Origin: Acidobacteriota bacterium
GTDB taxonomy: Bacteria; Acidobacteriota; Thermoanaerobaculia; Multivoradales; Multivoraceae
NCBI GenBank assembly: GCA_003388555.1
Contig: QQVD01000037.1
Span: forward strand, 1-64,000
Length of the DNA: 64,000 nucleotides
Reading direction: 5' to 3'
Shown: in pieces, positions 3,845-63,400 of the stretch
Position numbering within the stretch: position 1 is the stretch's first letter
Layout: every line of letters begins with the position of its first letter
Notes under the pieces: model-generated
Seen by the model: only the letters and a program-made list of their open reading frames with translations
Database searches by the model: none
Told to the model about the DNA's origin: nothing
Translations under genes and position numbers: made by a program

Positions 3845-4249
3845 ATGGCTCTCGAGATCAGCAAGGACTCCATCGATCTCGGCATCGTAGTGCGCGATGC
3901 CGAACCGATGCTCGCCTTCTACCGTGACACCCTGGGTCTGCCCCACCAGGCCGACCTCGATCTCCCCGGCGGAATGAAGATGCATCGCCTGCTGGCCGGA
4001 TCCTCGGTGATCAAGCTGGTCGCCTTCCAGCGCACGCCGGCTGCCGCCGCACCACCCGGAGGCTTGTCCGGAGGCAGCGGTTATCGCTACTTCACGATCA
4101 CCATCTCCAACCTCGAAGAAGCGATGCGCCGGGCCGAGAAGAAAGGGGCGAAGATCGCGATGCCGATCACCGAGATCCGACCCGGGATCCGCATCAGCAT
4201 GGTCGAGGATCCCGAGGGCAACTGGGTGGAGCTTCTCGAGGAGGACTGA
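3845..4249 (+). CDS. VOC/glyoxalase-fold protein
   Basis: A compact 134-residue protein of the vicinal oxygen chelate superfamily (glyoxalase I, bleomycin-resistance and dioxygenase fold). It opens with a typical betaalpha-beta unit (DLGIVVRDAEPMLAFYRDTL) and ends with the family's signature, MVEDPEGNWVELLE, whose Glu is usually a metal ligand. The single domain suggests a homodimer. AGGAGG at 3833-3838 with a 6-base spacer fixes the start at 3845. It converges with the nucleoside carrier gene. Substrate cannot be told; lyase, isomerase or resistance functions all fit the fold. Confidence 0.82.
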   Translation: MALEISKDSIDLGIVVRDAEPMLAFYRDTLGLPHQADLDLPGGMKMHRLLAGSSVIKLVAFQRTPAAAAPPGGLSGGSGYRYFTITISNLEEAMRRAEKKGAKIAMPITEIRPGIRISMVEDPEGNWVELLEED

Positions 4250-4277
4250 ACCGACGCCGTGGGCCGGTCCGGTGCCG

Positions 4278-4289
4278 GTGCCGCGGCAC
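4278..4289. terminator. GC-rich palindrome between convergent genes
   Basis: GTGCCGCGGCAC is a perfect 12-bp palindrome, extendable with one mismatch, in the 48-base gap between the VOC gene and the NupC-type gene that converge here. It is a possible factor-independent or pause hairpin. Confidence 0.25.
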
Positions 4290-4297
4290 GCCGGCTC

Positions 4298-5599
4298 TCA
4301 GAGCCCCAGCACGCCCTGCTGCCCGTAGTAGAAGAAGCCGGCGACGCAGCCGGTGAGCAGCGTCGCGATGGTCGCGGCGACCAGGGCGCGCAGCGCCAGC
4401 TGGCCGAGGTCGCCGAGGCGCTCGCTGGCCAGTGCGCCGAAGCCGCCGAGCGCGACGCCGACACCGGCGACGTGGGCGAAGCCGCACAGCGCGTAGGACA
4501 GCACCAGGATCGAACGCGGCGACAGCTCGCCGCTGTCGGCCATCTGGCCCAGATCCTGATAGCTCACCACCTCGGTGAGAACCAGTCGCTGCCCGAGCAG
4601 GCGGGCCGCCTCGGAGAGATCGGCCGGCTCGATGCCGAGCAGCCAGGCGAAGGGCGTGAACAGGACCCCGAGGACTCCGGCGAGGGTCGGCGGCGCCTCG
4701 CCGCCGCCGAGGGCGGCCGGCAGCAGGGCGAGCAGTGCGTCGACCAGCGCCACGACCCCGAGCACGGCGATGAGGATGGCGGCGATTCCCGCAGCGATGC
4801 GCAGGCCGGCCATCGCCCCGGACGCGAGCGCCGCGACCGGGTTGTCCTCGGTCGGCATCGAGTCGAGCCGTGGCACGGCGCCGAAGGTCTCCGGCGCGTC
4901 GCGTTCGGGGAGCATCAGCTTGGTGACCAGCACGGTGCAGGGGATCGAAAGGAGCGAGGCTGACAGGAGGTGGCCGGCGATGCGAGGGAAGGAGTCCTGC
5001 AGCAGCACGACGTAGATCGCGAGCGTCGTCGAAGCCGTCGTCGCCAGGTTGGTCGACAGCACCGTGAGCAGCTCGGAGCGGGTCATGCGCTTCAGGTAGG
5101 GCTCGATCGCGGCCGCGGTCTCGACGCCGAAGAAGATGTGCAGCGCTCCCGCGAGGCCTTCGGCACCCGAGAGTCGAAGGCTGCGATGGAACAGGCGGGC
5201 GAAGATGCGCACCACCGGAGCCACCAGCCCGAGGTGGTGCATCAGCGCCATCAGCGAGGCGAAGAAGATGACCGCCGGCAGCACCTGCGCCGCCAGCACC
5301 ACGCCGATCGAAGATTCGCCGGCCGCGGTGCTCTCGCCCGGTCCCAGGGCGAGCGGACCGAACAGGAACTCGGCGCCGGCCCGGCTGGCTCCGATCAGCA
5401 CCAGCACCGCCCGGTTGACCAGCAGCAGGGCCGAACGCACGGGCGGCAGCAGGAAGATGGCGCCGGCGAGCCCGAAGGTCAGCGCGGTCGAACCGAGCAC
5501 CGTGCGCCACGAGACCTCCCTGCGGCAGCCACCGATCGACCAGGCGAGGAGGCAGAGGACGCACCAGCCGCCCAGCGAGACGAGATTGAGCAGGCTCAT
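4298..5599 (-). CDS. NupC-type concentrative nucleoside transporter
   Basis: A 433-residue inner-membrane protein of the CNT (NupC) family, which imports nucleosides with Na+ or H+. It has about ten hydrophobic segments, with the family's core regions recognisable: a GVETAAAIEPYL helix near residue 155, the STNLATTASTTLAIYV segment near 185, and LTEVVSYQDLGQM near 345. The last corresponds to the region where family members carry the substrate-binding N-E/V-x-x. The C-terminal half ends with CGFAHVAGVGVALGG and a last membrane helix. It starts with ATG and lies 44 bases downstream of the acyl-CoA synthetase stop region on the same strand's neighbour side. Substrate preference is not readable. 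Confidence 0.85.
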   Translation of the reverse strand: MSLLNLVSLGGWCVLCLLAWSIGGCRREVSWRTVLGSTALTFGLAGAIFLLPPVRSALLLVNRAVLVLIGASRAGAEFLFGPLALGPGESTAAGESSIGVVLAAQVLPAVIFFASLMALMHHLGLVAPVVRIFARLFHRSLRLSGAEGLAGALHIFFGVETAAAIEPYLKRMTRSELLTVLSTNLATTASTTLAIYVVLLQDSFPRIAGHLLSASLLSIPCTVLVTKLMLPERDAPETFGAVPRLDSMPTEDNPVAALASGAMAGLRIAAGIAAILIAVLGVVALVDALLALLPAALGGGEAPPTLAGVLGVLFTPFAWLLGIEPADLSEAARLLGQRLVLTEVVSYQDLGQMADSGELSPRSILVLSYALCGFAHVAGVGVALGGFGALASERLGDLGQLALRALVAATIATLLTGCVAGFFYYGQQGVLGL

Positions 5600-5643
5600 G
5601 CCGGGAGTTTCGGGGCCAGTCGGAGTCGTGGGGGATGGGTGCG

Positions 5644-7194
5644 TCAGCCGGCCGGCCAGTAGCGCGCCCGCAGCTGCTGCTTGTACAGCTTCCCGGTGGG
5701 CAGCCTCGGCAGGCGATCGACGAAGTCGAACGAGCGCGGCACCTTGAACGACGCCAGCCGCTGCCGCGCGAAGTCCTCCAGCTCCTCGGCCAGCCGGTCG
5801 TCTGGCTCGACCCCCGGCGCCGGTTCGACGACCGCCTTGACCTCCTCGCCCATGTCTTCGTGAGGCACTCCGATCACCGCGACGTCGAGCACCTTGGGAT
5901 GCAGCACCAGGACGTTCTCGATCTCCTGCGGATAGATGTTCACGCCACCCGAGATGATCATGAAGGCCTTGCGATCGGTGAGGAAGAGGAAGCCGTCCTC
6001 GTCGAGATAGCCGACGTCTCCGAGCGTCGTCCAGCGCGGTCGGTGTGGATGGCGCGACTCGGAGGTCTTTCCCGGGTCGTTGTGGTACTCGAAGAGCTCG
6101 ACGTCCTCCTCTTGCTCGAAGTAGATCGTGCCCGGGCTCCCCGCGGGCAGCTCGGCGCCTTCTTCGTCGCAGACGTGCACCGTGGCGTTCACCGGCCGGC
6201 CCACGGAGCCCGGCTTGGAGAGCCAGGTGGTGGAGTCGATGAAGCAGGTGCCGTTGCCCTCACTCCCGGCGTAGTACTCGCGCAGGATCGGTCCCCACCA
6301 CTCGATCATCTGGCGCTTCACCTCGACCGGGCAGGGCGCGGCGGCGTGCACCGCGACCTCGAGGCTCGAGACGTCGTAGCGTTCACGGATCTCGCGCGGC
6401 AGCTTGAGCATGCGGCTGAACATCGTCGGCACCCACTGGGAGGTGGTGGCCCGATGCAGCTCGATCGCCGCCAGGGCCGCCTCGGCGTCGAACTTCTCCA
6501 TCACCACCACGGTGCCGCCCTCGGCCTGGGTGCCGGTGGTGAAGGCCAGCGGCGCGGCGTGGTAGAGCGGCGCCGGGGAGAGGTAGACGCAGCACTCACG
6601 GATTGCGAACAGGCCCTGCCGGATGGCGCTCTGTTTGGGATCCGGTGCGTCGACGGTCTCCCCGGTCAACGGCCGTTTGATGCCCTTCGGGCGCCCCGTC
6701 GTACCGGAGCTGTAGAACATCGTGCGCCCGCGTGGCTCCTGGTCCAGCCGCCTGGCCGGCGCCGCCGCGAGAGCGTCGCCGTAGTCGTCGTAGCCCTCGA
6801 TCGCGCCTCCGACGGCCAGGCGCTCAGGGCAGCGCCCCAGGTCGTCCAGTCGCTCACCCAGCTCGGCGGCGACCGGCAGGGCGGCCGATGCGACCAGGGC
6901 CTTGGCGCCACAGTCCTCGACGATGTAGGCGGCTTCGTCGGCTGCCAGATAGCGGTTGACCGGCGTCAGATAGAGACCCGAACGGATCGCCGCCCAGAAG
7001 ACCTCGAAGTACTCGATCCTGTTGTCCAGGTAGGCGGCGACGTGGTCGCCCGGCCTCAGTCCGAGCCCGTGCCAGTGCTGGGCCAGCCGGCACGACGCCG
7101 CCTCGAGCTCGCCGTACGTCGCCCTGGCGCTGCTGCCGGTGAGCACCACCGCAGGTCGATCGGGATGTTTGTCGCTGAAGGCGCCTGGATACAT
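5644..7194 (-). CDS. AMP-dependent acyl-CoA synthetase
   Basis: A 516-residue member of the ANL superfamily, which activates a carboxylic acid as acyl-AMP and transfers it to CoA. The P-loop-like A3 motif YSSGTTGRPKG is at residues 161-171. The adenylate-binding YYAGSEGNGTC region, the hinge motif GYLDEDGFLFLTDRK and the C-terminal catalytic Lys motif PTGKLYKQQL are all intact. The ATG at 7194 gives a normal family length; the much longer open frame upstream runs through G-rich repeats and is not coding. A TACACT -10-like box lies about 40 bases before the start. The acid substrate is unknown; the sequence resembles bile-acid/fatty-acid type FadD-like ligases of actinobacteria and other soil bacteria. 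Confidence 0.88.
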   Translation of the reverse strand: MYPGAFSDKHPDRPAVVLTGSSARATYGELEAASCRLAQHWHGLGLRPGDHVAAYLDNRIEYFEVFWAAIRSGLYLTPVNRYLAADEAAYIVEDCGAKALVASAALPVAAELGERLDDLGRCPERLAVGGAIEGYDDYGDALAAAPARRLDQEPRGRTMFYSSGTTGRPKGIKRPLTGETVDAPDPKQSAIRQGLFAIRECCVYLSPAPLYHAAPLAFTTGTQAEGGTVVVMEKFDAEAALAAIELHRATTSQWVPTMFSRMLKLPREIRERYDVSSLEVAVHAAAPCPVEVKRQMIEWWGPILREYYAGSEGNGTCFIDSTTWLSKPGSVGRPVNATVHVCDEEGAELPAGSPGTIYFEQEEDVELFEYHNDPGKTSESRHPHRPRWTTLGDVGYLDEDGFLFLTDRKAFMIISGGVNIYPQEIENVLVLHPKVLDVAVIGVPHEDMGEEVKAVVEPAPGVEPDDRLAEELEDFARQRLASFKVPRSFDFVDRLPRLPTGKLYKQQLRARYWPAG

Positions 7195-57485: not shown

Positions 57486-58547
57486 TCAGCGGCCGGCCGC
57501 CGTGTCGGCGAGGATCGACAGCAGGACCTGCTCGTCGAGACTGCCTCCGGACAGCACACAGATCTTGATGGCGTCGCCGTCGCTGGCCAGCGCCGCGGCG
57601 TAGGTGAGCGCCGCCGAGCCCTCGACGATCAGCCGGTTGCCCCTCGCCAGTGCGGCGAGGGCCCGGCGCGTCGTCGACTCTTCGACCAGGTCGACGCGAT
57701 CGACGACGCGCCGCAGCAGCGGGAACATCTCGCGGGTGATGTAGGGCACCGCGACGCCGTCGCAGAAGGTGCGGCAGTCGACGCTCACCGGCTCCCCGGC
57801 GGCGAGCGAGGCGTGCAGGGCGGGGCATCCGGACGGCTCGACGGCGACCAGTCGGGTGCGTTCGCCCCACCCCGCCGCGTGCAGGGCCGAGCCGATCCCG
57901 GCGATCAGACCGCCGCCGCCGACCGAGACGTAGATCTCCACCGGTTTCCCATCCCGTCTTGCGGGCGGTCTTCCATGCGATCCCTCGTGCCGCGACGGGT
58001 CGCGGTGCTCCAGCTCCCGGACGAGCTCGAGCCCGAGGCTGGCGTGTCCGGCAATGACGTCGGGCTCGATCCACGGATGCACGAAGGCGGCGCTCTCGCT
58101 CCGCCAGCCGCCCTCGCGGAGGAACTCGAACAGCGCATCGCGCGGCACCTGGCGCACCGTGCCGCCGAGCGCCTCGACGGCAGCGACCTTGGTGGCCGGC
58201 GCGCCCTCCGGCATCAGGCTGGTGGCGGCGACGCCGAAACGCCGTCCGCACCAGGCCAGCGCCTGCGCGGTGTTGCCCGCCGAGACGGTGAGCAGGCCGA
58301 CGTCGCGGCGTGAGGCCCCGAGGCGGGAGACCGCGTGGTAGATGCCGCGCAGCTTGAACGAGCCGATCGGTTGCAGCGTCTCCGGCTTGAGCCAGATCTC
58401 TGCCCGCGTCGCGTCGCCGCTGGCGTCCCGGGCGCGTACGAGGGGGGTGCGCAGGCAGACGTCGTAGACGATCTCGGCGGCGCGCTCGAGGGCCTCCAGA
58501 TCCGGCAGCTGGAGGGGCGCGTAGCCGGGCGCCGGGCTCGGTCTCAC
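57486..58547 (-). CDS. PLP-dependent threonine/serine dehydratase-like enzyme
   Basis: A 353-residue fold-type II PLP enzyme, related to threonine dehydratase and serine racemase. The PLP Lys is K65 in IGSFKLRG. SAGNTAQALAWCGRRFG is the Asn-loop region, and SVGGGGLIAGIGSA the phosphate-binding loop near residue 208. It has no ACT regulatory domain, so it is catabolic/racemase-like. About 20 extra residues (HRDPSRHEGSHGRPPARRDG region, 181-200) lie before the Gly loop and come from a repetitive DNA stretch. The GTG start overlaps the helicase-nuclease stop (GTGA), an odd coupling. Confidence 0.82.
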   Translation of the reverse strand: MRPSPAPGYAPLQLPDLEALERAAEIVYDVCLRTPLVRARDASGDATRAEIWLKPETLQPIGSFKLRGIYHAVSRLGASRRDVGLLTVSAGNTAQALAWCGRRFGVAATSLMPEGAPATKVAAVEALGGTVRQVPRDALFEFLREGGWRSESAAFVHPWIEPDVIAGHASLGLELVRELEHRDPSRHEGSHGRPPARRDGKPVEIYVSVGGGGLIAGIGSALHAAGWGERTRLVAVEPSGCPALHASLAAGEPVSVDCRTFCDGVAVPYITREMFPLLRRVVDRVDLVEESTTRRALAALARGNRLIVEGSAALTYAAALASDGDAIKICVLSGGSLDEQVLLSILADTAAGR

Positions 58548-61500
58548 GGCCAGCGCACCGGGATCTGGAGGACGCGGTCTTCGCCGTCGCGGTAGCAGAC
58601 GAACCCCTCGCGCCGGCCGAAGAGGTAGAGGTCGCGCAGCAGCTCGACGGCGCGCCGACAGTACTGCTCGATCTCGTCGAAGCGTCCCTCGCGGTACCAG
58701 GCCAGGCTCTGCATCCCGTCGGAGCTCTTGGCGGCGCCGAGTGTCGCCTCGCACAGTGCCGACAACCCGACCCGCCCGCCGATCGACGCCTCGATCTCCT
58801 CGAGCAGGTCGAGGGTGGGCAGCGAGCGGCTGAAGTCCTCGCCGGTGTATCCGGAGAGCACCCGGTAGTCGAAGCGAACGCTGTTGAATCCGACCACCAG
58901 GTCGGCGCCGCGCAGGTCGTCGACCAGGGCACCCACGTCGTCCTCGCGGTAGACGCGGAAGCGGTTCTCCTCCATGAAGCAGGCGACGGCCAGGGCGACG
59001 CCGAGACGGTGCACGTGCAGCCAGCCGCCGACCTCCTCGGCGCTGCGCTTGGTCTCGACGTCGAAGAGCAGGGTGCGCTCGACCACCCGCGGCAGGGGCC
59101 GCCGTGGTGGCCGAGCGACGAGCTCGGCCGGAGCGCTGCCCGGCGTCGCTGTGTCGGAGGCGGCGCTCGGCGAGCGTGGCGACCAGCCGATCCGTCCGAG
59201 GTCGAAGAGGTTGCGGCTGGGACCGCCGATGGAGTCGCTGTCGACGCTCGCTCCGGCGGCGTCGGGCATCCGGGCTTCCGGCCCCTGTGGCGGTGGCGGA
59301 TGGAAGCGGTGCTCGGGTCCACGTGGCTCGCGGTCGACCCGCGGCGGCGGCGGCTGGACCGGCCGCGAGAGGTCGAGTGGCGGCGGCTCGATCGGCCCCC
59401 TGCGCGGTGCGCTGCGCCCGCGCAGCAGGCGCACCAGCTCGACGGCGCCGGGCTTGTCGAGTGGCCGGTTGCCGTTGCCGCACTTCGGCGACTGCACGCA
59501 GCCCGGGCAGCCGTCGGCGCACTGACAGCGCGCGAGCAGCTCCTCGACCCGGTCGAGCAGCTCGCTGAGCCGCTCGAAGCCGGCCTCGGTGATGCCGACG
59601 CCGCCTTCGTGGCCTTCGTAGAGGAACACCGCGCCGGAGCCGACCTGCGGGTGGAAGGGGATCGAGATGCCGCCGAGGTCGCCGCGGTCGCACAGCGCAA
59701 GCACCGGAAAGAGCGAGATCGCAGCGTGCTCGCAGGCGTGCAGGGCGCCCATGAAGTCGAGTCCCAGCTCGCGGAGCGATTCTTCGATCGCGCCCGGCGC
59801 GGCGAACCAGAGGGCGACGCTGTCGAACTCGACCGGGTCGAGCTCCAGCGCCTCCCGGCTGAGGCGCTCCTGCGACGAGATCTTCTTGCGCTCGTAGCCG
59901 ACGACGCGCTCGGTCACCCGGACCCGCCCCAGCCAGGCGCTCAGCGGCCCCGAGTGGGCGTGGTCGTAGAGCTCGAGGATCTCGGTGTGCTTCTCGGTGA
60001 GCGGCGTGGTGAAGTAGTCGACGTGCACCGGAGTCGCCACCGCCCTCCGCTTCTGCTGGTCGAGCTCCGAGATGGCGAACTGCCGCCCGGCGTGCAGGTA
60101 GATCGCTCCCGGATGGCACTCGCGCAGTGCCCGCACTCCGTCGACGGTGCCGATCGCCCTGCCGCTGGCGTCGCTGACGATGGTGTAGACCGCTCCGCCG
60201 CCGCGCAGCGAGATGCCGCGGTGGGGCGCGCCGTCGAGCGAGTGGATCAGGCTGCCGTCGTGGGACCGGGCCAGGCGATGGGCGGCGAGCATGTCGCCGA
60301 CGGTGGCGGCATGGTCCTCGAGGTAGGCGCGGTCGCGCGCGGTGTCGAGCGCCAGCTCGGTGGCGGCGCAGGCCAGGTGGCGCGACGCGATCGCCGAGTT
60401 GCGCGGTGAGGTCACCAGCGGCTCGCATTCACGTCCGAGGAACTCGTCCGGCTGCCGCAGCAGGTACTGGTCGAGAGCGTCGGGCAACGCCACCAGAGCG
60501 GTGATCGACTCGCGCCCCTGACGCCCCACCCGTCCCGAGCGCTGCCAGGTGGCCATCATCGACCCCGGGTAGCCCACCAGTACGCAGGCGTCGAGGCCGC
60601 CGACGTCGATCCCCATCTCCAGCGCCGAGGTCGAGATCACCGCGTCGAGCTCGCCATCGTGCAGCCGGCGTTCGATCTCGCGCCTCTCGGAGGCCAGGAA
60701 GCCGGCGCGGTAGTTGGCCACGCGCGCGGCGAGCTCGGGCTCCTTGGCCTGCAGCCACGAGTGCAGCAGCTCGGTCATGCGGCGCGCCTTGGTGAAGACG
60801 ATCGTCTTGAGGCCGGCGCGCACCAGCGCCACCAGGAGCTGCAGACTGGTGGTGTAGGGGCTGGTGCTCGGCTGGAGGAGCAGGAAGTGGCGGCCCTCGC
60901 GAGGCGCCCCGGAGTCCTCCACCAGCAGCAGATCGCGACCGGTGAGCTGGCGCGCGAAGGACGCTGCGTTGCTGGCGGTGGCCGACGACGCGATCAGCGA
61001 GGGCTCGGCGCCGGCACGGCGGCAGAGGCGCAGCAGTCGCTGCAGCACGTGGTGGAAGTGGCTGCCGAAGACGCCGCGGTAGGTGTGCAGCTCGTCGAGC
61101 ACGATCCAGCGCAGGTCGGCGAGCAGCGGTTGCCAGCTCGCCGCGTGCCCGAGGATGCCGAAGTGCAGCATGTCGGGGTTCGAGATCAGCACCCGCGGCG
61201 GATCGGCGCGAATCCCCTCGCGTTGCTTGCGCGGCGTGTCGCCGTCGTAGATCGCGCAACGAGCGTCGTCGGTCGCGATCCCGGCCAGCTCGCGCAGCTC
61301 GTCGAACTTGCCCTGCTGGTCGCGCCCGAGGGCTTTGAGCGGGAACAGGAAGAGCGCCTTGCCGGGCTCGCGGCGGAGCGCTGCTTCGAGCACCGGGAGC
61401 TGGAAGACCAGCGACTTGCCTGACGCTGTCGGCGTCGACAGGAGCACGTCGCGGCCCGCCCTCGCCGCCGCCAGCCCCTCGACCTGGTGACTCCACAGGG

Positions 61501-61687
61501 CGTCGATGCCGCGGCCGGCCAGCGCCGCGAGCAGCGGTTCGGGGAGGGGAGGCGTCGGCTCGGCGAGGCGCTGCGGCCGCGCCGGCAGGTAGGCGCGGTG
61601 CGCGATCTGTGCGGCGAGCTCGCCGCCACCGGAGAGGCGGTCGACCAGCTCGCTGAGGGATGCCGCGTCGGTGGTCTGTGGGGCCAT
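58544..61687 (-). CDS. MrfA/YprA-like helicase fused to MrfB-like exonuclease domain
   Basis: A 1,047-residue fusion. Residues 60-450 form a superfamily 2 helicase: Walker A STPTASGKS at 84-92, motif II DELH at 198-201, SATASN near 240, and QRSGRVGRQGR. The middle carries the DUF1998-type region, with EHAAISLFPVLALCDRGDLGG and a four-Cys zinc motif CQCADGCPGC...KC near 719-735, as in Bacillus MrfA (YprA). After a Pro-rich linker (about 750-870) comes a DnaQ-like RNase H fold (872-1047). It has FDVE (D876, E878) and FNSVRFDY, but the third motif reads YCRRAVELL, with Ala1013 where family members have the Asp. MrfA and MrfB act together in mitomycin C repair. The ATG at 61687 gives the expected start. 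Confidence 0.82.
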   Translation of the reverse strand: MAPQTTDAASLSELVDRLSGGGELAAQIAHRAYLPARPQRLAEPTPPLPEPLLAALAGRGIDALWSHQVEGLAAARAGRDVLLSTPTASGKSLVFQLPVLEAALRREPGKALFLFPLKALGRDQQGKFDELRELAGIATDDARCAIYDGDTPRKQREGIRADPPRVLISNPDMLHFGILGHAASWQPLLADLRWIVLDELHTYRGVFGSHFHHVLQRLLRLCRRAGAEPSLIASSATASNAASFARQLTGRDLLLVEDSGAPREGRHFLLLQPSTSPYTTSLQLLVALVRAGLKTIVFTKARRMTELLHSWLQAKEPELAARVANYRAGFLASERREIERRLHDGELDAVISTSALEMGIDVGGLDACVLVGYPGSMMATWQRSGRVGRQGRESITALVALPDALDQYLLRQPDEFLGRECEPLVTSPRNSAIASRHLACAATELALDTARDRAYLEDHAATVGDMLAAHRLARSHDGSLIHSLDGAPHRGISLRGGGAVYTIVSDASGRAIGTVDGVRALRECHPGAIYLHAGRQFAISELDQQKRRAVATPVHVDYFTTPLTEKHTEILELYDHAHSGPLSAWLGRVRVTERVVGYERKKISSQERLSREALELDPVEFDSVALWFAAPGAIEESLRELGLDFMGALHACEHAAISLFPVLALCDRGDLGGISIPFHPQVGSGAVFLYEGHEGGVGITEAGFERLSELLDRVEELLARCQCADGCPGCVQSPKCGNGNRPLDKPGAVELVRLLRGRSAPRRGPIEPPPLDLSRPVQPPPPRVDREPRGPEHRFHPPPPQGPEARMPDAAGASVDSDSIGGPSRNLFDLGRIGWSPRSPSAASDTATPGSAPAELVARPPRRPLPRVVERTLLFDVETKRSAEEVGGWLHVHRLGVALAVACFMEENRFRVYREDDVGALVDDLRGADLVVGFNSVRFDYRVLSGYTGEDFSRSLPTLDLLEEIEASIGGRVGLSALCEATLGAAKSSDGMQSLAWYREGRFDEIEQYCRRAVELLRDLYLFGRREGFVCYRDGEDRVLQIPVRWP

Positions 61688-61925: not shown

Positions 61926-62525
61926 ATGATCGATGCCGAGAGCACGGCCCGGGTCCTCGCCCTCAGCCGGCCGCACCCGAACCTGCTCAAGCTCTACGTG
62001 CTGCAGTCGTTGCTGCTCGGCCCGTTCTTCCCCTTCGCGCTGATCCCCTACCTCTTCCGCTACTCGACGCTGCGCTACGTGTTCGACGAGGAAGGCGTGT
62101 CGATGCGCTGGGGGGTCTTCTTCCGCCGCGAGATCTCGCTCAACTACGCGCGCATCCAGGACATCCACCTCTCCAACCACCTGATCGAGCGCTGGCTCGG
62201 CCTGGCGAGGGTGCAGATCCAGACCGCCAGCGGCTCGGCGGCGGCGGAGATGACCATCGAGGGTTTGCAGGAGTTCGAGCTGGTGCGCGACTTCCTCTAC
62301 TCGCGCATGCGCGGCGCCAAGGGCCTGGCCGACCTCGACGAGGCTCCGGGCACACCCGCCGGGTCTGCTCCGCAGGCTTCGGACTCCGGCGTCGACGTCG
62401 GCGACGGCGGCGACGCCGAGCGCCTGGCGGTGGCGCTCGAGAACGTCGCCCGCGAGCTGGCCGAGGTGCGTAGGTTGCTCGAGAGCGAGGCCGCCGGCCC
62501 GGCGATGGGCGGGTCGGAGCGATGA
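61926..62525 (+). CDS. Bacterial PH-domain (bPH2) membrane protein
   Basis: A 199-residue protein with two adjacent membrane helices near residues 25-45 (LYVLQSLLLGPFFPFALIPYLF) followed by a bPH2 domain (YdbS/YdbT-like): STLRYVFDEEGVSMRWGVFFRREISLNYARIQDIHL, here recognised by its DEEGV, RWGVFFRRE and ARIQDI pieces. The tail after residue 135 is acidic and helical. GAAGGAAAC precedes the ATG. The next gene overlaps its stop (ATGA) and encodes a second PH-domain protein, as in the paired ydbS-ydbT genes of Bacillus. Function is not settled; roles in resisting membrane-active compounds are reported for ydbST. Confidence 0.78.
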   Translation: MIDAESTARVLALSRPHPNLLKLYVLQSLLLGPFFPFALIPYLFRYSTLRYVFDEEGVSMRWGVFFRREISLNYARIQDIHLSNHLIERWLGLARVQIQTASGSAAAEMTIEGLQEFELVRDFLYSRMRGAKGLADLDEAPGTPAGSAPQASDSGVDVGDGGDAERLAVALENVARELAEVRRLLESEAAGPAMGGSER

Positions 62526-63400
62526 AGCGACTCCTCCTGGCGCTGCTCAAAGTACCCGAGCGGCCGAGCCTCCCGCCCGGCCCCGAGGGCTCGGTGGACT
62601 GCTTCCGGGCGTCGCGGAGATTCCTCGCCTACACCGTGCTCAAGTGGGGACTGAAGCAACTCGGCGCGGTGATCTCGCTGGTCGTGTCGCTGGCCTTCCT
62701 CACCGGTTTCCAGTGGGGGCCCTTCGGTGCGATCGAGCCGATGAGAGAGCTCGCCGAAGAGGACATCAGCATCGGTGTGCTCGGCTTCGTCAGCGTCGAC
62801 ACCACGATGGGCGACCTGCTCGGCGTCATCGAGATCTTCGCCATCGGCGCCTTCCTGATCCAGCTGGTGGTCTCGGGCTTCTTCCTCAAGCTGGCGTGGG
62901 AGCTGCGCTGGTACATGGTCAGCGACACCACGATCCGGATCCGAGAGGGGCTGGTGCGGCTCAAGGAGCAGACCATGACGATGGCGAACATCCAGAACAT
63001 GAGCATCCGTCAGGGTCCGCTGCAGCGGCTTTTCGGAATCTACGACCTCGAGGTGCAGACTGCCGGTGGCTCGGGCAGCGGCATGGGCAGCGAGGGCAAC
63101 CCGACGGCCGAGAACCTCCACGTCGGCAAGTTCCGCGGCCTGCGCGACGCCGAGGCGCTGCGGCGCCGCCTGCGGGCTCGTCTCGCCCTGCACTCCGACT
63201 CCGGGCTCGGAGATCCCGACGAGGCGGCTCGCGCCGATGCCCGCCGGCGGGCCGCGGCGGGCAGGGGCGCCGGGGCGGCGGGGCGGCCGGGTGTGGATCT
63301 CGGCGTCGCCACCGCCGCTGCGTCGAGGGTCCTCGAGGAGGCTCGGACGCTGCGCCTTGCGGTGCAGCGTCGGCGTGACGGCGGCATATCGACGGCGTGA
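62522..63400 (+). CDS. Second bacterial PH-domain (bPH2) membrane protein
   Basis: A 292-residue partner of the previous protein, starting at an overlapping ATGA. Two hydrophobic stretches are visible near residues 40-65 (QLGAVISLVVSLAFLTGF) and 100-125 (LGVIEIFAIGAFLIQLVVSGFFL). The PH-like region follows with WYMVSDTTIRIREGLVRLKEQTMTMANIQNMSIRQG, recognised by its IREGLVRLKEQTM and ANIQNM pieces. The C-terminal 70 residues are Arg/Ala-rich and probably cytosolic. The pair likely forms a membrane complex. Confidence 0.78.
   Translation: MKRLLLALLKVPERPSLPPGPEGSVDCFRASRRFLAYTVLKWGLKQLGAVISLVVSLAFLTGFQWGPFGAIEPMRELAEEDISIGVLGFVSVDTTMGDLLGVIEIFAIGAFLIQLVVSGFFLKLAWELRWYMVSDTTIRIREGLVRLKEQTMTMANIQNMSIRQGPLQRLFGIYDLEVQTAGGSGSGMGSEGNPTAENLHVGKFRGLRDAEALRRRLRARLALHSDSGLGDPDEAARADARRRAAAGRGAGAAGRPGVDLGVATAAASRVLEEARTLRLAVQRRRDGGISTA

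Follow-up and report, generated by a model that had tools for sequence, protein, structure and literature searches.

A YprA-family helicase fused to a DEDDy-type nuclease domain in a Thermoanaerobaculia bacterium, with the fourth metal ligand of the nuclease replaced by alanine

The 64,000 nucleotide stretch of contig QQVD01000037.1 analysed here (the window), from a bacterium of the Thermoanaerobaculia (Acidobacteriota), encodes in one protein of 1,047 residues a YprA/MrfA-family helicase and, beyond a proline-rich linker, a nuclease domain of the DEDDy type. The explanation that we consider probable overall is that this is an inherited, repair-type YprA-DEDDy fusion with an intact helicase and a tethered nuclease which has probably been weakened by replacement of its fourth metal ligand, an aspartate, by alanine (D1013A). 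Fusions of this class are already in print: a preprint by Bell et al. (2025, PMC12458937) states that homologues of MrfB/YprB can be joined to YprA helicases. The additions made here are that the nuclease is of a DEDDy subfamily, and the protein of a clade, separate from those of MrfAB, and that the window copy has lost a ligand. The features of the gene, in window coordinates, are:

58544 to 61687, minus strand: whole gene, YprA-family helicase/DEDDy-type nuclease-domain fusion, 1,047 residues, recognised from its open frame and the conserved fusion
59453 to 61687, minus strand: helicase module, residues 1-745 (RecA1, RecA2, winged helix and MrfA Zn-binding domain)
59081 to 59452, minus strand: linker, residues 746-869, proline-rich and predicted to be disordered
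58547 to 59080, minus strand: DEDDy-type DnaQ/RNase H-fold nuclease domain, residues 870-1047
59054 to 59062, minus strand: Asp876-x-Glu878, the first two metal ligands (FDVET)
58868 to 58870, minus strand: Asp940, the third metal ligand (GFN..RFDY)
58661 to 58663, minus strand: Tyr1009, the "y" of DEDDy
58649 to 58651, minus strand: Ala1013 (GCC) replacing the fourth metal ligand, which is Asp in 68 of 68 other complete fused relatives
58544 to 58546, minus strand: stop codon of the fusion gene

Translation of the minus strand gave an ATG start and 1,047 residues followed by a stop, with no internal stops, and the opposite strand of the same interval is interrupted by stops. The helicase covers approximately residues 1-745, the disordered linker approximately residues 746-869, and the DnaQ/RNase H-fold domain the remainder. 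A preliminary description of the window had proposed a helicase and a DnaQ-like domain in one chain, and this is borne out by the clean frame and by family matches, while the sequencing error merging two genes that it had raised as a danger, and likewise an assembly error at the junction, were ruled out, because most relatives with the nuclease domain show the same single-frame fusion, which recurs across several phyla. The nuclease domain was carried by 24 of the genomes of 60 relatives, nearly always in the helicase frame, and genomes of the same order without it mostly had no true YprA either; the clearest exceptions (G038 and G032) have helicases on short contigs, with that of G038 reaching the contig end. 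In a sample of 297 genomes of the phylum, the full fusion was found in 39 (the window's own included), with 4 further fusions truncated, either at a contig end or because the frame is very short, and a nuclease domain with no helicase in frame in 13. The majority of 80 loci from GTDB genomes were also single-frame fusions, although ranking this sample by its similarity to sequences of Acidobacteriota biases it in favour of fusions; fusion-bearing phyla include Acidobacteriota, Desulfobacterota, Latescibacterota, Nitrospirota, Nitrospinota, Planctomycetota, Zixibacteria and others. A candidate second kind of fusion, an open frame of 1,124 residues in G120, was rejected, being a helicase with a tail containing none of the nuclease motifs.

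Residues 1-745 are a YprA/MrfA-family helicase, as the preliminary description had proposed. Residues 11-733 match Bacillus subtilis YprA/MrfA (6znp, E 2.6e-131), the four best matches of the helicase structure model in the PDB are all MrfA entries (including 6znp, 6znq and 6zns), and the family matches in this half are DEAD, Helicase_C, WHD_HRQ1 and the MrfA Zn-binding domain. The helicase motifs are intact (motifs I, II, III and VI are present, with TPTASGKS at residue 85, DELH at 198, SSAT at 234 and QRSGRVGR at 382), a winged helix lies at residues 428-496, and the four-cysteine MZB/DUF1998 zinc domain (PF09369, 67.5 bits) lies at residues 653-731 with Cys721, Cys723, Cys727 and Cys730. 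No deviations were found at the 92 helicase columns that are invariant in 68 relatives. The closest NCBIfam model to the fusion protein was TIGR03817, at 693 bits, which is below its cut-off of 874.

The C-terminal domain was expected to belong to an RNase H-fold family and to be DnaQ-like, and it proved to be both. RNase_H_2 (PF13482) scored 20 bits on the window domain alone, under the curated cut-off of 22, and was matched by all 21 members of the nuclease-domain alignment (best 1.3e-9); the domain was modelled with a mean predicted local distance difference test score (pLDDT) of 94.5. The best PDB fold matches of the model are polymerases with 3'-5' exonuclease domains; at the level of sequence profiles, no PDB entry matched the nuclease domain significantly. 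Marginal tetratricopeptide repeat (TPR) matches on the domain were rejected, since they cover a single helix of its nuclease fold. Nucleases of the DEDDy type use two metal ions to remove nucleotides from 3' ends, and nearly every relative of the window domain retains the D/E/D/Y/D set of active site residues, with the fourth Asp four residues past the Tyr.

The further claim that the domain is an MrfB-like exonuclease could not be upheld. MrfB is a DEDDh nuclease with a C-terminal TPR domain (PMC11194089). The MrfB-type proteins that we fetched from Bacillota have an HN..D motif, and the two longest of these have C-terminal extensions that appear TPR-like by eye. The His-x3-Asp of a DEDDh active site is absent from the window protein, which has Tyr1009-x3-Ala1013 where its relatives have Tyr-x3-Asp, and the protein ends with the nuclease domain, leaving no C-terminal TPR domain. 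Profile comparison by hhalign gave 100% (E 7.4e-68) for the window domain against a stand-alone DEDDy family, and 54.6% (E 1.2e-4) against MrfB-type nucleases. Because it is DEDDy, without TPRs and of another subfamily, the domain is judged from its sequence to belong to the DEDDy subfamily and not to be an MrfB orthologue. The gene could nevertheless be read as a true MrfA-MrfB fusion, the single-gene form of the mitomycin repair pair of B. subtilis, since the helicase family is identical, the nuclease belongs to the superfamily and Pfam family of MrfB, no stand-alone MrfB was found in the genome and Bell et al. term the fused partners MrfB/YprB homologues (PMC12458937). The active site type, the missing TPRs and the weak MrfB profile match, together with the separation of the fused helicases from those of mrfAB operons described below, make this reading decidedly unlikely. 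Complementation by MrfAB reportedly requires closely related alleles (PMC12458937).

Stand-alone DEDDy RNase_H_2 genes of approximately 170-240 residues (FDxET..S..EVGG) were widespread (L158-L170), several of them in genomes lacking YprA. When 12 genomes with a stand-alone nuclease were searched for YprA, it was found in 3, with none at a convincing score in the other 9; the YprAs of those 3 genomes were two unfused proteins (808 and 798 residues) encoded on another contig and one long frame (1,021 residues).

A single clade of the helicase tree (98% support by the Shimodaira-Hasegawa-like approximate likelihood ratio test) unites the YprAs linked to mrfAB with the other unfused ones; the fused proteins lie outside it, and the window helicase does not group with the YprAs that adjoin mrfB. 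The tree came from a quick search and was rooted on a divergent, long-branch row, and the fused proteins may form one clade or two; their position outside the operon clade is independent of the root. Twelve of the unfused YprAs of Acidobacteriota directly adjoin a gene of MrfB type (415-557 residues), these accounting for all 12 MrfB-type matches at the examined loci, and none of the 13 fused loci has an MrfB-type gene beside the helicase. Canonical mrfA-mrfB pairs of DEDDh type thus occur within Acidobacteriota itself (L237, L241-L243, L245, L246, L248-L252 and L257). The genome-wide search for a stand-alone mrfB that had been proposed found none with PF13482, but only canonical MrfB is excluded by this, because the weakly matching domain of the window itself also escaped this search; a second copy of the DEDDy domain was not present in the genome. 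One unfused helicase of 775 residues (L240 from G150, 4017-6341) branches among the fused ones with no nuclease domain detected nearby, and from its sequence this may possibly represent loss of the nuclease.

The window nuclease retains D876, E878, D940 and Y1009 but its four-acid DEDDy set is incomplete, Ala1013 being the sole deviation of the whole protein at the 112 columns (92 helicase and 20 nuclease) that are invariant in the 68 relatives. By motif order we take position 1013 to be equivalent to D262 of MrfB, and an MrfB D262A variant kept some activity, with no statistical difference from wild type on single-stranded DNA (PMC11194089), so the window domain should not be presumed inactive. 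Judging by the sequence, cutting by the window nuclease is probably reduced through D1013A and need not be abolished, although it may be poor or absent. The preliminary description had suggested that unwinding and cutting are strictly coupled in the fusion; for the window copy this is doubtful and cannot be assumed, because the fourth catalytic ligand is replaced.

The change could also be a sequencing or assembly error, the enzyme then being an ordinary, active DEDDy fusion: it is a single-base difference (GCC against GAC), in one genome, with the remaining domain intact. Against this stand the clean frame and an assembly of 74 contigs with a completeness of 98.8%, and we regard an error as unlikely. 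A reading to which we give somewhat more weight, while still thinking it the less probable outcome, is that the window nuclease is a pseudo-exonuclease which the helicase retains as an arm for DNA binding or regulation. The fourth metal ligand is gone while all the other invariant positions are kept, and the genome has no second copy of the domain. Further, genus g6 (L145, 5331-8297; L146, 5904-8643), which belongs to the same order, has a nuclease that lacks DxE, the third Asp and Tyr, yet whose C-terminal half persists; the helicase frame of G025 is intact, and that of G040 (L146) is split into two overlapping frames. It argues against a pseudo-exonuclease in the window that 4 of the 5 catalytic positions remain, that the equivalent MrfB variant retained activity and that there was no clear change of rate: in a three-taxon comparison the nuclease branch was not significantly faster than the helicase branch (95% interval of the difference -0.04 to 0.18), leaving a general decay of the window nuclease unsupported. 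More broadly, and only tentatively, the YprA-DEDDy fusion may be a repair system distinct from MrfAB, with a different nuclease subfamily recruited independently, and nuclease catalysis may be dispensable in it, being down or off in at least two lineages of the order (genus g6 and that of the window's genome), where the domain would still serve the helicase as an arm for handling DNA; we think this rather doubtful as a whole.

Returning to the inherited fusion with a weakened nuclease, several points weigh against it. The absence of a significant speed-up of the nuclease branch speaks against general decay of the domain, and D1013A is known from one assembly, where a single-base error may have turned GAC into GCC. 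The literature searched yielded no assayed member of the fused clade, and direct evidence on mitomycin or repair is confined to the other YprA clade.

The linker, from which the preliminary description had suggested two mobile modules, has a proline share of 22% and predicted disorder at residues 786-857 (pLDDT below 50), and among relatives its length ranges from 41 to 156 residues. Taken with the modelled disorder, this range of lengths suggests tethering of the nuclease near the motor over strict mechanical coupling. In the explanation that we favour, the gene is a vertically inherited, housekeeping gene of DNA-repair type, belonging to a widespread clade of the YprA family that carries, on a flexible tether, a putative 3'-5' exonuclease of its own DEDDy-type subfamily. 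What the analysis shows directly is the domain anatomy, its conservation and distribution, and the D-to-A change; polarity, substrate, repair role and degree of activity we infer. The motor of the fused family would most likely track 3'-to-5' along one strand, like MrfA, this being the movement expected from homology to MrfA and SftH (PMC12458937). The tethered nuclease would trim 3' ends exposed near the helicase, and the long disordered linker would act through local concentration and not as a rigid coupling.

Upstream of, and divergent from, the fusion are two adjacent bPH_2 genes (window 61926-63400) and then an Fpg-like glycosylase gene running off the window; downstream lie, immediately next to it, a pyridoxal phosphate (PLP)-dependent dehydratase-like gene (window 57486-58535, same strand), which is possibly co-transcribed with the fusion, and a short-chain dehydrogenase/reductase (SDR) gene. 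A gene similar to the dehydratase-like gene is found beside the fusion in L148 and was undetected in L147. Both of the same-family genomes carrying the fusion retain the bPH_2, Fpg and SDR neighbours, and because of this the locus points to a stable chromosomal position rather than a mobile or defence island; the order of the bPH_2 and Fpg genes is conserved in two relatives. Membership of an antiviral YprA system (ARMADA, Druantia, DISARM, Dpd or TALON) might be suggested by the matches of PADLOC helicase models to the motor domains of the window protein, and by TALON YprAs ending in inactivated RNase H folds (PMC12458937). No defence genes were found among the four neighbours scanned, which are metabolic, bPH_2 and Fpg genes, and the helicase is MrfA-sized, has MrfA as its best match and aligns along its length to 6znp, leaving little room for BrxA-like or zinc-binding insertions. 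On the neighbours and the helicase type, we therefore rejected a defence role, which is very improbable.

In the inherited repair-type fusion that we favour, one helicase family is paired within one phylum with two exonuclease subfamilies, MrfB (DEDDh) as a separate gene and a DEDDy domain as a fused one, and the tempting label of MrfB for the C-terminal domain is corrected. The natural variants, with a complete active site, with one ligand missing or almost fully dead, offer material for asking whether YprA-type repair needs nuclease activity. Compared with known systems, the window protein has in common with B. subtilis MrfA (YprA, 6znp) the domain order, the zinc domain and the motifs (33% identity by structure alignment), but it adds the C-terminal nuclease and its helicase lies outside the mrfB-operon-linked YprA clade. 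With MrfB (YprB) the nuclease shares the DnaQ/RNase H fold, Pfam family PF13482 and the family of the partner helicase, and differs in being DEDDy, TPR-less and covalently attached where MrfB is DEDDh, has TPRs and is encoded separately. The DEDDy proofreading domains of polymerases are the closest solved folds, yet have approximately 15% identity and are fused to polymerases. The stand-alone DEDDy RNase_H_2 proteins are of the same subfamily as the window's C-terminal domain, but are encoded by separate short genes, mostly in tested genomes without YprA. Finally, the window gene fits the description of the YprA-MrfB/YprB fusions of Bell et al. (2025, PMC12458937), but where they name an MrfB/YprB homologue, the partner in the window is of a distinct DEDDy subfamily and its fourth Asp is absent.
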